Notes under the pieces: generated by a model | The model's database searches: none | What the model saw: the letters and a program-made list of their open reading frames with translations, nothing else | Told to the model about the DNA's origin: nothing | Assembly: GCF_000184705.1 (NCBI RefSeq) | Contig: NC_014831.1 | Location: forward strand, 1,302,001 to 1,366,000 | Source of the DNA: Thermaerobacter marianensis DSM 12885 | GTDB lineage: Bacteria; Bacillota; Sulfobacillia; Thermaerobacterales; Thermaerobacteraceae | Length of the DNA stretch: 64,000 nt | Reading direction: 5' to 3' | In this document: one piece after another, positions 52,271-57,668 of the stretch | Numbering within the stretch: position 1 is the first letter of the stretch | Layout of the letters: every line of letters begins with the position of its first letter | Position numbers and translations under genes: made by a program

Positions 52271-52645
52271 TCAGCCCTGGCGGTACTGGACGCCGTAGCC
52301 GCCGCGCGGGTTGAGCCACTTGATGTTGCGGAACGGGCAGCCGATGCGGCAGGTGCCGCACTCGACGCACCCCTCGTAACCCACCAGGATCTTTTGCGCC
52401 TCGGCGTCCCACTCATACACGTGGGCCGGGCAGAACTTGGTGCAGTATTGCTCCGGACACTGGTAGAGGCAGACGTCCGGGTCGATGATGAACAGGTGCG
52501 ACTGCTTGTCGGCGTTGAACCGGTCCAAGTAAAGCTTATCCTGGATGGTCATGGGCCGGGCACCGGCCGGCGCCTGCCCACCCTCCGTCTCCGGGGCCTC
52601 GACGTCCTTAGGGGCCGCCGCGGCGGCCGCAGCCCGCGCGCTCAT
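52271..52645 (-). CDS. fixX: Ferredoxin-like protein FixX
   Basis: 124 residues from ATG 52645, overlapping the fixC stop as ATGA, with GGAGGG upstream. Cysteines CLYQCPEQYCTKFCP and CVECGTCRIGCP are arranged as in FixX/ETF-dehydrogenase ferredoxin subunits that carry 4Fe-4S clusters. The first 35 residues are Ala-rich. It passes electrons between the flavin of FixC and quinone. Last gene of the four-gene electron-transfer operon. Confidence 0.94.
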   Translation of the reverse strand: MSARAAAAAAAPKDVEAPETEGGQAPAGARPMTIQDKLYLDRFNADKQSHLFIIDPDVCLYQCPEQYCTKFCPAHVYEWDAEAQKILVGYEGCVECGTCRIGCPFRNIKWLNPRGGYGVQYRQG

Positions 52646-53940
52646 CCGATCGCCCTCCACATGGAGTACAGGTCGTAGGCGATGCGCCACAGCGGCCGCT
52701 GCTGGCGCACCATGCGGATGATCTTCGCCTGCTTATCCCACTTGGGCGTGCTGTCCACGGTGAAGAATTCCCGCATCACCCGGCTCAGCAGCTCGGGGTA
52801 GTCCCGCAGGAACTGGGGGTTCTCGTCGAAGAATTCGTTGGCGTGGTTGTACTTCTTCAGGTCCTTGAGGACATAGGTCTCCTCGAGCCGCTGCTGGTAG
52901 CGGCACAGGACCCGGCTGGAACTGTCGCCCTCCGCCAGGGCCTCCAGGGCCACCTCGCCGGCGATGCGCCCCGACGTCATGGCCAGGTTGGAGCCCTCGC
53001 GGTGGATGGCGTTGGTCAGGCCCGCCGCGTCCCCCACCACCATGAGGCCGTCCTTGAACAGCCGTGGAATGGCCTTGTAACCGCCCTCGGGGATCAGCTT
53101 GGCGGAGTACTCGATCACCTTGCCGCCCTCGATCAGCTTGCGGACCTTGGGGTGCTGCTTGAGCCGCTCCAGCAGCTGGTTGGGGTTCATCCCGCTGTAG
53201 ACCAGGTGCTTCACCAGCACGCCGACGCCGAAGGACACCGACTCCTTGTTGGTATACAGGAAGCCCATGCCCAGCATGCCGGCGGTGGCGTCGCCCAGCA
53301 TCTCCACCGTGGCACCCTGGCCGGGCTCCAGGCCGAAGCGGTCCTCGATCTTTTCCCGCGGCAGCTCGATGACTTCCTTGACCGCCAGGGCGGCCTCGTT
53401 CATCTTCCAGTCGTCGTGGAGGCCGGCCTTCTGGGTCAGCAGGTTGTTGACCCCTTCGGCCAGGATCACCACGTCGGCGTAGACCTCGCCCTCGGGGCGG
53501 CCCGCCACCACCCCCACCACGCGGCCGCGGTCGTCGTGGATCAGGTCGACCACCGTGGTCCGGGTGATCAGGGTGGCACCGGCTTCCTCCACCTTCTTGG
53601 CGAACCAGGGGTCGAACTTGGCCCGCAGCACGGTGAAGTTATTCGGCGGGTCGTCGGCCCAGCGCGGCGTGCGGTACCCGAAGGTCACCGCCGAATCGGG
53701 CGTCATCAGCCAGTAGTTCTGCTCCACGATGGTCCGCTCGATGGGCGCCTCGCGCCAGAAGCCGGGGAGGAGCTCATCCAGCTGGTGCCGGTAGAGCACC
53801 CCGCCCATCACGTTCTTCGACCCGGGGTACTCGCCCCGCTCCAGGATCAGCACGTTGGCGCCGCCCCGGGCCAGGACCAGGCCGGCCGACAGCCCCGCAG
53901 GGCCGGCGCCCACGATCACCACATCGAAACGTTCCGCCAC
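52642..53940 (-). CDS. fixC: FixC / ETF:quinone oxidoreductase-type flavoprotein
   Basis: 432 residues. GTG 53940 is chosen because GGAGG lies 6-7 bases ahead of it; ATG 53946 is only one base after that site. FAD motif VVIVGAGPAGLSAGLVLARGG, then GGVLYRHQL and the second FAD block GLMVVGDAAGLTNAIHREG. With EtfAB it passes electrons to menaquinone at the membrane. In EtfABCX complexes this subunit is the low-energy branch of flavin-based bifurcation. It starts 13 bases after the etfA stop. Confidence 0.93.
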   Translation of the reverse strand: MAERFDVVIVGAGPAGLSAGLVLARGGANVLILERGEYPGSKNVMGGVLYRHQLDELLPGFWREAPIERTIVEQNYWLMTPDSAVTFGYRTPRWADDPPNNFTVLRAKFDPWFAKKVEEAGATLITRTTVVDLIHDDRGRVVGVVAGRPEGEVYADVVILAEGVNNLLTQKAGLHDDWKMNEAALAVKEVIELPREKIEDRFGLEPGQGATVEMLGDATAGMLGMGFLYTNKESVSFGVGVLVKHLVYSGMNPNQLLERLKQHPKVRKLIEGGKVIEYSAKLIPEGGYKAIPRLFKDGLMVVGDAAGLTNAIHREGSNLAMTSGRIAGEVALEALAEGDSSSRVLCRYQQRLEETYVLKDLKKYNHANEFFDENPQFLRDYPELLSRVMREFFTVDSTPKWDKQAKIIRMVRQQRPLWRIAYDLYSMWRAIG

Positions 53941-53953
53941 AGCCATCCCTCCG

Positions 53954-55165
53954 TCAGGCGCCCGCCCGGGCGGCCGGCGCCGCGGCGTCCTCCGTCTCGC
54001 CGGACGAACCGGCCCCGCCGGCCTCCGCAGCGTCCTCCGCCAGCAGCTCGTCCAGGCGCCGGGCCAGCTCGGACTGCAGGGCGGGGAGGATCTGGAACAG
54101 ATCGCCCACCACGCCCAGGTCGGCCACCTTGAAGATGGGCGCCTGGGGATCCTTGTTGACCGCGACGATCAGTTCCGAGTTCTCCATGCCCACGGTGTGC
54201 TGGATGGCGCCGGAGATGCCGAAGGCGAAGTAGACCTTGGGCCGCACGGTCAGGCCCGTCTGGCCCACCTGGTGCTCGCGGCCGATCCAGCCGGCATCGA
54301 CGATGGCGCGGGACGCACCCACGACCCCGCCCACCGTCTCGGCGAACTCGAAGAGCAGCTTGAGGTTCTTGGGATCCTGGAAGCCGCGGCCGCCGGCCAC
54401 CACCACGTCGGCCCGCTCCAGTTGGGCCTGCGGGTCGGGCTCGTCGATCACGCCGAGCACCTGGGTGCGTAGGCTGCCCTCGTCCAGGTCCACGGGGAAG
54501 CGCACGATCTCGCCCGTCCGGCCGGGCTGGCGCACCGCGGGTTCCATCATCTTCGGCCGCACCGTGGCCATCTGGGGCCGGTGCTTCTTGCAGAGGATCA
54601 CCGCCAGCTGCTTCTCCAGGAAGGCGGGCCGGATGGCGTCGAGCAGCCGGGTCTCCGGGTCCACGTCCAGCTGGGTGCAGTCGGCCGTCAGGCCCGTCTG
54701 CAGGGTGGTGGCGATGGTCCCCGCCAGATCGCGGCCGGTGGTGGTGGCGCCTAGCAGGAAGATCTCCGGCTTGACCTCCCGGATGGCCGGCGTCAGGACC
54801 CGGGAGTAGGCCTCGTTGCGGTACACCGCCAGCGCCGGGTGGTCCAGCAGGATGACCCGGTCGCAGCCGCGTTCCACCGCCTCCCGCGCGACGGCCTCCA
54901 CCTGGTGGCCGGCCACGAAGCCGATGAGCTCGACCCCCAGCTTGTCGGCCAGCACCCGGCCGATGCCCGCCAGTTCCCATGCCACGGGCGCCGCTTGCCC
55001 GCCGTGCTGCTCGATGAAGATACCCACCCCGCGGTACGATTCCAGGTCCGGGGTCTCGCCGGCGCCCCGGGCCACCGCGGCCTTCTTGCCTGCCGCGGCC
55101 GCCCCGTCCCGGCCGGCGCCGGCTCCGGCGGCCGGTGCCGCCTTGGCCATGGCTTCTTCGCTCAC
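53954..55165 (-). CDS. etfA: Electron transfer flavoprotein alpha subunit
   Basis: 403 residues from GTG 55165 with GGGAGGGGAGG. An Ala/Gly-rich extension of about 40 residues precedes the Rossmann part. The C-terminal FAD domain is clear: GGRGFQDPKNL, GASRAIVDAGW, GQTGLTVRPKVYFAFGISGAIQH, AVNKDPQAPIF. It binds the FAD that shuttles electrons to FixC. The end is a second low-complexity tail that includes one of the 13-mers. Confidence 0.96.
   Translation of the reverse strand: MSEEAMAKAAPAAGAGAGRDGAAAAGKKAAVARGAGETPDLESYRGVGIFIEQHGGQAAPVAWELAGIGRVLADKLGVELIGFVAGHQVEAVAREAVERGCDRVILLDHPALAVYRNEAYSRVLTPAIREVKPEIFLLGATTTGRDLAGTIATTLQTGLTADCTQLDVDPETRLLDAIRPAFLEKQLAVILCKKHRPQMATVRPKMMEPAVRQPGRTGEIVRFPVDLDEGSLRTQVLGVIDEPDPQAQLERADVVVAGGRGFQDPKNLKLLFEFAETVGGVVGASRAIVDAGWIGREHQVGQTGLTVRPKVYFAFGISGAIQHTVGMENSELIVAVNKDPQAPIFKVADLGVVGDLFQILPALQSELARRLDELLAEDAAEAGGAGSSGETEDAAAPAARAGA
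54002..54014 (+). repeat. Dispersed 13-mer GGACGAACCGGCC, copy 6
   Basis: In the low-complexity C-terminal tail of etfA, antisense (protein reads GAGSSGE), 48 bases before the stop. Confidence 0.7.
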
Positions 55166-55193: not shown

Positions 55194-56093
55194 TCAACGG
55201 CCCCGGGACGAACCGGCCTCGCCGCTTCCGCCCGCCATGGCGGCCGCCATGGCGGCGCTGCGCCGTGCCGCCACCACCGCCTTGCGGAAGGTGGGGTGGG
55301 CCAGCAGCCGGTCCGCCAGCTCCAGGGCCGCCCGCTGCGGGTCGCTGCCGTCGATCATCACCGTCTCCCGCTTCTTCTCGGGCGGGGTGAAGGACTTGGC
55401 CACGATGGTGGGCGAGCCCAGCAGGCCCACCTCCGTCCGCTCCAGCCCCAGGGTCTCCCGGTTCCACACGATGGGCTTGTGCCGGGCGGCCCGCAGCATC
55501 CCCGGCAGGGACGCGTACCGCAGCTCGTTGAGCTCCTTCTCGACCGTCAGCAGCGCGGGCAGGGTCGAGCGCACCACCTGCCGGCCGCCCTCCACCTTGC
55601 GCTCCACCACGATGGTACGGCCCTTGGGGTCCACCTCGCGGATCCGGATGACGTAGGTCAGGACGGGGACGTCCAGGCGAGCGGCGATGCCCGGGCCGAC
55701 CTGCCCCGTGTCGCCGTCGATGGTCTGCCGGCCGCAGCAGATCAGGTCGACGGGCCCGAACTCCTGCTCGATGCGCCGGATGGCTTCGGCCAGCACCCGG
55801 CTGGTGGCGAAGGTATCGGCGCCTGCCATGGCGCGGTCGCTGACCAGCACGGTGCGGTCGGCCCCGACGGCCACGGCCTCCTTGAGCGACTGCTCGAAGA
55901 AGGGCGGGCCCATGCTGACCACCGTGACCTCGCCGCCCAACTGGTCCTTGATCTGCAGCGCCGCCTCGAGGGCGTGGACGTCGTAGGGGTTGATGATGGA
56001 CGTCACGCCTTGGCGCACCAGGGTGCCCGTCTTGGGGTTGATCCGCATCTCCGAGCTGTCGGGCACCTGCTTGAGGCAGACCACCACGTGCAT
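55194..56093 (-). CDS. etfB: Electron transfer flavoprotein beta subunit
   Basis: 299 residues from ATG 56093. CLKQVPDSSEMRINP opens it, with the nucleotide-binding segments LISDRAMAG-like (VSDRAMAGADT), CCGRQTIDGDTGQVGP and the recognition loop (LRYASLPGMLRAAR). In bifurcating ETFs this subunit holds the FAD that splits electrons from NADH. Together with etfA, fixC and fixX it makes a complete EtfABCX set. The C terminus is a short Ala/Gly/Ser tail with a 13-mer copy. First gene of the operon, with a long leader. Confidence 0.96.
   Translation of the reverse strand: MHVVVCLKQVPDSSEMRINPKTGTLVRQGVTSIINPYDVHALEAALQIKDQLGGEVTVVSMGPPFFEQSLKEAVAVGADRTVLVSDRAMAGADTFATSRVLAEAIRRIEQEFGPVDLICCGRQTIDGDTGQVGPGIAARLDVPVLTYVIRIREVDPKGRTIVVERKVEGGRQVVRSTLPALLTVEKELNELRYASLPGMLRAARHKPIVWNRETLGLERTEVGLLGSPTIVAKSFTPPEKKRETVMIDGSDPQRAALELADRLLAHPTFRKAVVAARRSAAMAAAMAGGSGEAGSSRGR
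55206..55218 (+). repeat. Dispersed 13-mer GGACGAACCGGCC, copy 7
   Basis: In the last codons of etfB, antisense (protein ends AGSSRGR), 12 bases before the stop. Confidence 0.7.
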
Positions 56094-56296
56094 GCTTCCA
56101 CCGCCTTTCCCCGCCGGGGGGTCGGGGGCGCTCACCGGCGCCCTCGCCCTCCGGCCCATGACCGGCCGCCCGCTGCCCGTTGCCGCTCCGCCGCCTGCCG
56201 GCCGCCGCCGTCTTGCGGGGGCGCGGCCCTCCGGTGGTGCGCCGCCGGTCGACCACCGGCGGCCGCTGGCCCGGTGGGCGAGGCACCGGGCGACTT

Positions 56297-56312
56297 TGTG
56301 ATGCCGTTCACA
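56297..56312. promoter_or_regulatory. CRP/FNR-family type operator
   Basis: TGTGATGCCGTTCACA is TGTGA-N6-TCACA, the full CRP consensus half-sites. It lies 204 bases upstream of etfB and about 255 bases inside the predicted transcript. It could serve a second promoter or block elongation. Confidence 0.6.
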
Positions 56313-56566
56313 TGTCGGCCCGGACCATGGCCCCCCGATGACCGCATCTCCGCAAACCCCAGGCCGGCGCCGCCTGGGCACGCCCCGCCCGGCGGCCGGT
56401 ACCGGCCCGGGAGCTCCGCCGGCGGCGCCGGGCGCCGGCCGCGTTCTTCCGAGGAATTCATTCCCCATGGTCCAGCAAAAGCCTGCCGGACCCACGTCAG
56501 CGCCGCCGGCAGTTGGTGCTGCCGCCCCAACGCCTTGCGGAGCGCACCGGTGCCCTTTCAATCCCC

Positions 56567-56595
56567 ACTGTATGCCTCTTCGAACGGGGTTTCAA
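56567..56595 (-). promoter_or_regulatory. Sigma-A promoter of the etfB-etfA-fixC-fixX operon
   Basis: Minus strand TTGAAA (56590-56595), a 17-base spacer and TACAGT (56567-56572). It begins 6 bases after the upstream gene's stop and is one of the best promoter matches of the window. Confidence 0.75.
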
Positions 56596-56600
56596 CGGAA

Positions 56601-57668
56601 TCAGAGGCGCCGCCGCAGGCGCGGGTCGGGGGCGGCACCGGGGATGCGGCCGCGCTTCGCCACGGGGCGGCCGGCCACTTCCTTGAGGTCCATGGTCATG
56701 TCCACCGGCGGTGCCGCGGCCACGTAGCTGCCCACACCGAAGGCGTCGGCGCCCGCCTCCTTGAGGGGCGGGATGCGCTCGGGGGTGATGCCGCCCGAGA
56801 CGAACACCTTGACGTGGCCGAAGCCCGCCTGGGCCAGCCGCGCCTTGACCTCGCGCACCAGGCCGGGGGTCACCCCGCCCCGCTCCGAGGGCGTGTCGAG
56901 CCGGACCGCGGCCAGCCGCTGCCCCAGGGCCGCCGCGATCCGGACCGCTTCCACGGCCTCGTCCTGGAAGGTGTCGACCAGCACCACCCGCTGCTCCTGC
57001 GGGGGGAAGACCCGGTCGGCGGCATGGGCCACCGTGAGGGTGTCGCCGGCGATCAACATGACCGCGTGGGGCAGCGTGCCGCTGGGATCGCGGCCGGCCA
57101 GGCGGGCGCCCAGGATGCAGCTGGCCCCGTCCATGCCGCCGACGATGGCGGCCCGCTCCATCACCGGCGCCACCGCCGGGTGGACGTGACGGGCCCCGAA
57201 GCAGATGACGGGCGTATCCCCCGCCACCTCCTTGATGCGCCGGGCGGCCGTGGCCCAGCCCGTGGCGGAGGCCAGCATGCCCAGCAGGGCCGTCTCGTAG
57301 AGGCCGAAGGCGCCGTAGGGGCCCTGGATGCGCATCACCACCTGCCCGGCCTCCACGGGCTGCCCTTCGTCCACGGCCCACACGGCCACGGGCAGGCCGC
57401 GCAGCAGGTTCAGCGCCTCTTCCACGCCGCAGAGGATGCCGGCGCGGTTGGCAAAGACGTCCGCCGTCACGGGGGTGTTGAGGGCCCCCAGGTGGCGCAG
57501 CACCTCGTAGGTCTTGACGAAGTAGACGTCGGTGGTGGCGCCGCGGCGGATCTCCTCATGGGTCGCCGCGTGCAGCCGTCCCGGTTCCGGGCGAACGGCC
57601 TCCAGGGCCGGGAAGGAGTCGACCCGGCCTTGAAGGGGCGGCAGCGATTCCGGTCCTGGTGGCATCAT
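56601..57668 (-). CDS. Nicotinate phosphoribosyltransferase
   Basis: 355 residues from ATG 57668, overlapping the rluB stop (ATGATG) and following GGGGAGG. The type II phosphoribosyltransferase fold is supported by TTDVYFVKTYEVL, RHVHPAVAP, GGMDGASCILGARLAG, HAVMLIAGDT, VRLDTPSERGGV and GGITPERIPPLKEAGADAFGVGSY. It makes nicotinate mononucleotide from nicotinate and PRPP for NAD salvage. The shorter length matches the archaeal/clostridial type of NAPRTase; QAPRTase (nadC) is a less likely alternative. The promoter of the etf operon starts right after it. Confidence 0.88.
   Translation of the reverse strand: MMPPGPESLPPLQGRVDSFPALEAVRPEPGRLHAATHEEIRRGATTDVYFVKTYEVLRHLGALNTPVTADVFANRAGILCGVEEALNLLRGLPVAVWAVDEGQPVEAGQVVMRIQGPYGAFGLYETALLGMLASATGWATAARRIKEVAGDTPVICFGARHVHPAVAPVMERAAIVGGMDGASCILGARLAGRDPSGTLPHAVMLIAGDTLTVAHAADRVFPPQEQRVVLVDTFQDEAVEAVRIAAALGQRLAAVRLDTPSERGGVTPGLVREVKARLAQAGFGHVKVFVSGGITPERIPPLKEAGADAFGVGSYVAAAPPVDMTMDLKEVAGRPVAKRGRIPGAAPDPRLRRRL

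Follow-up and report, generated by a model that had tools for sequence, protein, structure and literature searches.

The palindrome in the leader ahead of etfB is, as judged from sequence and conservation, a real, conserved operator. It lies in a window of 64 kb, the whole stretch of DNA analysed here (1302001-1366000 of a single 2,844,696-bp contig). We consider it likely that the palindrome is the operator for the genome's Rex, which would repress etfBACX from within the leader. The Rex family consists of NADH-sensing repressors that respond to NADH. The palindrome thus construed probably ties the etf genes to the redox balance of the cell in a known kind of way.

The leader and promoter ahead of etfB

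The etfB, etfA, fixC-like and fixX-like genes lie in a row on the minus strand (56093 down to 52271). The 507 bases between the end of the nicotinate phosphoribosyltransferase gene (56601) and the start of etfB (56093) hold both a promoter and the palindrome. The features of the region are as follows.

56601-57563 (scanned portion), minus strand: nicotinate phosphoribosyltransferase, 5' neighbour of the leader (QRPTase domains; NF006415 at 465 bits, cut-off 243)
56567-56595, minus strand: promoter TTGAAA-17-TACAGT (promoter-pattern search of a 1-kb region; 1 match, 0.0 expected in shuffles)
56296-56313, no strand assigned: 18-bp palindrome TTGTGATGCCGTTCACAT, presumed Rex operator (motif search, conservation, shuffles)
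56094-56559, minus strand: untranslated leader, start site estimated (promoter, gene ends, flat codon-position GC, no Rfam family)
55194-56093, minus strand: etfB, electron transfer flavoprotein beta (PF01012, 1e-44; NCBIfam EtfB-type matches under cut-off)
53954-55165, minus strand: etfA, alpha subunit, presumed start codon (PF01012 and PF00766)
52642-53946, minus strand: etfC/fixC-like FAD oxidoreductase (profile match; FixC subfamily 2.7e-102, under cut-off)
52271-52678, minus strand: etfX/fixX-like ferredoxin (PF05187, 2.3e-13)

The promoter that had been predicted about 470 bases ahead of etfB is present (56595 to 56567, minus strand), and from its position the start site of etfBACX is estimated at about -466 from etfB. 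It is kept in all four Thermaerobacter genomes (G000-G003, of which G000 is the genome of the window), hexamers and spacer letters AAGAGGCA included. In G001, G002 and G003 it was recovered at 9/12, with AAGAGGCATACAGTG kept around the second hexamer, and the extended promoter string has a single occurrence in its own genome at up to three mismatches. The original prediction of a leader of about 470 bases without a gene also holds: from the estimated start the leader measures about 466 bases, and a codon-position GC bias is absent in every frame, so that it looks non-coding. On the same flat profile a hidden gene inside it was rejected.

Conservation of the palindrome and its fit to Rex

The perfect TGTGA-N6-TCACA that had been noticed in the leader, TGTGATGCCGTTCACA, is located at 56297-56312. 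With up to one mismatch allowed, the 64 kb contain this match alone, where 0.44 would be expected, and the expectation for an exact match in a leader of such size is about 6e-5 by base composition. We surveyed etfB loci of relatives, which include G004 from the same family, G005 from the same order, and G007 and G040 from the same class; G000-G004 are referred to as the five family genomes. Upstream of etfB the palindrome is found at one mismatch in G000-G004, G005 and G040, and at two mismatches in G007. Within Thermaerobacter the sites read TTGTGATACGGTTCACAT (G003), TTGTGACACCGTTCACAT (G002) and TTGTGACATCGTTCACAT (G001), and in the farther relatives TTGTGATCGTCTTCACAT (G004), TTGTGAAATTTATCACGA (G005), ATGTGAGCTGTGTCACAA (G040) and, with its two mismatches, TTGTTACATATTTCACTA (G007). 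The half-sites are constant across relatives, the inner bases variable, and directly after the palindrome the letters AAAGT are kept in 5/5 family genomes. The original prediction had named absence of the palindrome from relatives, together with a transcription start close to etfB, as evidence against it. The absence did not occur, as the site is kept at eight of the 30 etfB loci, where none of 100 shuffles matched it. The remaining 22 loci are without a site, among them that of G032, whose weak match was equalled by 2 of 100 shuffles. A GTDB scan yielded ten loci, of which nine were scanned; L159 was omitted, its match beginning at the locus edge. A clear site was seen among the nine only in L157, which is the same contig as G004 and is not counted, and the other eight have no strong site (best fraction of shuffles 0.025).

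The 18-mer TTGTGATGCCGTTCACAT agrees with TTGTGA-N6-TCACAA at 11 of the 12 outer letters. With the Rex operator consensus TTGTGAANNNNTTCACAA, taken from portions of PMC6391272 and PMC5355995, the sites of G000 and the four other family genomes share 12/14 letters, which 0 of 100 shuffles equalled. At up to one mismatch TTGTGA-N6-TCACAA occurs six times in the own genome, twice perfectly; at up to two mismatches there are 14 sites, versus 5 for the reversed control. In the seven relatives pooled, 33 sites have one mismatch or none, versus 0 control matches. Among the 44 unique half-sites from the five family genomes, position 7, which is outside the search pattern, is A in 25 and G in none, a count in which identical sites are entered once and which includes atp sites overlapping a presumed start codon. 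Leaving out the five presumed atp sites, four of them with their neighbourhood read and the one of G001 assigned by likeness alone, A is found in 16/34 (probability 0.004 at a 25% background).

The own genome encodes one Rex (PF06971 over cut-off), which resembles solved Rex structures (best 7e-48), and a Rex is present in 39 of the 41 genomes searched, own included. The own Rex has a recognition helix of the TTGTGAA type, in a region that reads QIRKDLAYFGAFGTRGVGY. The helix is readable in 29 of 30 loci and contains R(K/R)D in all 29; the K presumably reads the G of the operator.

One of the closest known systems is described in PMC5355995, on parts of which the following comparison draws. 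Footprinted Rex operators of Streptomyces avermitilis include those of atpI, nuoA1, cydA1, rex-hem and wblE, and their forms include TTGTGACCTGCTTCACAT (nuoA1), ATGTGAACGCGTTCACAA (cydA1), TTGTGATACGGTTCACGA (atpI) and also TCGTGAAAGCGTTCACAT. In the five family genomes the etf sites agree with one or other of these forms at 15 or 16 of 18 letters. Both systems, as far as that text covers them, have an identical type of 18-bp palindrome, which tolerates the same changes at its ends and at position 7, and both have ATP synthase among the targets and an operator inside a leader (there +108 to +135), target and operator being presumed for the present genomes. Here, in contrast, the presumed targets are etfBACX and the riboflavin operons, the operator is some 250 bases beyond the presumed start, and in the own genome, G000, sites were seen neither at nuo or cyd nor within the 10 kb read around its rex gene (L116). 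For clostridial Rex, the targets named in PMC5367854 include an etf-containing operon, crt-bcd-etfBA-hbd. However, the operator given there is TTGTTAA-N4-TTAACAA, and the operon is that of butyrate formation rather than etfBACX.

Position of the site, proposed mechanism and alternatives

Relative to the predicted transcription start, the etf site is centred at about +255 in G000, +205 in G003, +366 in G002 and +382 in G001. It coincides with the start in G007 and lies at about +37 in G040. Thus, in six of eight genomes the site is downstream of, or at, a start, all of these starts being predicted and the distance variable; the promoter search returned no good promoter in G004 and none near the site in G005. 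Between palindrome and etfB no promoter-like sequence was found in Thermaerobacter, and the site is therefore not in an activator-type position. Such a variable distance downstream of the predicted start would fit a repressor or a roadblock, not an activator. Precedents come from S. avermitilis, where, according to the relevant part of PMC5355995, Rex protects +108 to +135 of wblE, in the leader, and the cydA1 operator is found just downstream of the transcription start. Together with the variable downstream position, these precedents lead us to propose that Rex represses etfBACX at low NADH.

Transcription of etfBACX would start about 466 bases upstream of etfB. At a low NADH/NAD+ ratio Rex would occupy its operator, some 250 bases into the leader, and block RNA polymerase or, alternatively, shut a weaker, unrecognised promoter near the operator. 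When NADH rises, Rex would be released and the etf genes expressed, along with the genes for riboflavin and perhaps those for ATP synthase. What the sequences show is the elements themselves, their conservation, the motif in common with other loci and a rex gene; that Rex binds, represses and acts as a roadblock, and that it responds to NADH here as its family does, we infer. Several observations count against Rex. The distance between etf site and promoter in Thermaerobacter, about 200-380 bases, is larger than in the S. avermitilis precedent, no good promoter came up in G004 or near the site of G005, 22 of 30 etfB loci are without a site, as are nuo and cyd in G000 and rex within the 10 kb read, and a CRP homologue with the helix ARESVSR is present. 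Moreover, the site at an aminotransferase gene is at an activator-like place, and conservation at atp is perhaps partly coding.

The palindrome might instead serve a weak second promoter nearby, with the far promoter giving a separate or minor transcript and Rex or CRP acting at a conventional distance. The AAAGT kept right after the palindrome in 5/5 family genomes would suit this arrangement, as would the sites of G007, which covers the predicted start, and G040, about 37 bases past it. We nevertheless regard it as unlikely, since no match of at least 8/12 occurs near the palindrome in G000-G004 and since the far promoter is kept with its spacer letters in 4/4 Thermaerobacter genomes.

Less probable still is a role for the genome's CRP-family protein, which would bind the palindrome as activator or repressor. 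The original prediction had put forward a CRP/FNR relative that could link electron bifurcation to redox or energy state. The conserved operator and a plausible redox link stand, whereas CRP/FNR does not prove to be the best-fitting binder: Rex fits better, the site is downstream of the only recognisable promoter, and another palindrome is found near the CRP gene. The half-sites do equal the CRP consensus, and a CRP homologue (the L002 protein) with the recognition helix ARESVSR, which we take to keep the residues that read TGTGA, is kept in G000-G004. The five family genomes have 25 exact copies of TGTGA-N6-TCACA, versus 2 control occurrences, both in G004. An identical outer form, ATGTGAA-N5-TCACAA, about 61 bases before the presumed aminotransferase start would befit a class I activator. 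CRP, however, prefers the half-site TGTGAT, and compared with CRP/FNR-type sites the etf site has identical inner half-sites and differs in flanks, in position 7 and in its place relative to the promoter. It has T/A flanks and belongs to a set rich in A at position 7, and in Thermaerobacter it lies 200-380 bases downstream of a conserved promoter with nothing promoter-like after it.

Among the exact copies of TGTGA-N6-TCACA a second type stands apart, GGCTGTGA-N6-TCACAGCC, which is kept about 1.3 to 5.5 kb from the CRP gene in 4/4 Thermaerobacter genomes, with one outer base different in G003. Its position 7 is C or T in 8/8 half-sites and A in 0/8, and it looks like a CRP-type motif distinct from the etf site. 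The gene downstream of it is one for hemerythrin-DUF2249 in G000 and, in G001 and G002, one whose product has a similar N-terminus. Its locations are:

L151:2154-2175, L148, L149 and L150: GGCTGTGA-N6-TCACAGCC

That the leader is mainly a structured RNA, an attenuator or riboswitch in which the palindrome is incidental, is very improbable, and was rejected as the main reading: folding is only somewhat better than in shuffles (z -2.09), an Rfam scan of the leader at two thresholds gave no family (one chance-level match, on the opposite strand and far under cut-off), no terminator-like hairpin or intrinsic terminator was found in it, and the palindrome recurs at unrelated loci. The folding and comparison of the leader that had been suggested gave a modest folding signal and no genus-wide leader sequence beyond promoter and palindrome; most of the leader diverges within Thermaerobacter, although G001 and G002, which are mutually close, share more.

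Other sites of the same palindrome in the lineage

Matches to the palindrome recur across species at genes of redox and energy metabolism. In the four Thermaerobacter genomes, six of them are followed after 19-63 bases by an FMN aptamer. The aptamers score 58.9 to 66.0, just under the Rfam cut-off of 66.2, with E at most 1.3e-11. Those of G000 belong to the ribD operon and to the ribE/ribBA operon, and G001 and G003 have one palindrome with FMN aptamer each at one mismatch. The sites are:

G000:C1:1696711 (L010/L111): palindrome before an FMN riboswitch, rib genes
G000:C1:2396413 (L011/L112): palindrome before an FMN riboswitch, rib genes
L152, L153, L154 and L117: the corresponding palindromes in the other genomes

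A TPP riboswitch is found on the minus strand at L011:2362-2478, upstream of the ribD region.

If the Rex reading is true, Rex regulates an etfABCX operon as well as riboflavin genes that have FMN riboswitches besides. Tentatively, we suggest that Rex links the supply of flavin to electron transfer by flavoproteins in Thermaerobacter and its relatives. It would act on etfBACX through a roadblock far downstream in the leader and on the riboflavin operons through an operator directly before the FMN riboswitch, so that riboflavin synthesis would be read out by redox and FMN level in series. Sites of this class are known; what may be undescribed is the regulon of this lineage, with a Rex-type site and an FMN riboswitch in tandem. 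The literature searched contained nothing on Rex with an FMN riboswitch or with fixABCX, the main comparative Rex study (Ravcheev 2012) being outside its scope, so that absence from print is not established. For Rex and riboflavin biosynthesis the only match concerned Cap0037, as far as the retrieved portion of that source goes.

The palindrome is also present at the ATP synthase operon in all four family genomes read there (G000, G002, G003 and G004); in G001 a site of the same form is known from the motif search. In G000 (L113:2821-2838) the palindrome overlaps the presumed start codon, GTG, of the operon's first gene, as it does in G002, G003 and G004, so its conservation may be partly coding. 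Another palindrome (L015:1501-1518; G000:C1:2591120) is flanked by genes for a histidine kinase and a branched-chain aminotransferase, and its inner letters (ATGTGAAGTTCGTCACAA) are identical in 4/4 Thermaerobacter genomes. In the three genomes read it lies at about -61 from where the aminotransferase gene presumably starts, a position that would suit an activator.

Finally, G004 has a perfect site ahead of genes with complex-I-type antiporter domains, and in G007 and G040 several sites adjoin genes for cytochromes or iron-sulphur proteins, others adjoining unrelated genes. One further conserved palindrome, at L014:1501-1518 (G000:C1:2484767), has no clear target and follows directly after a strong terminator-like hairpin with a T-run.
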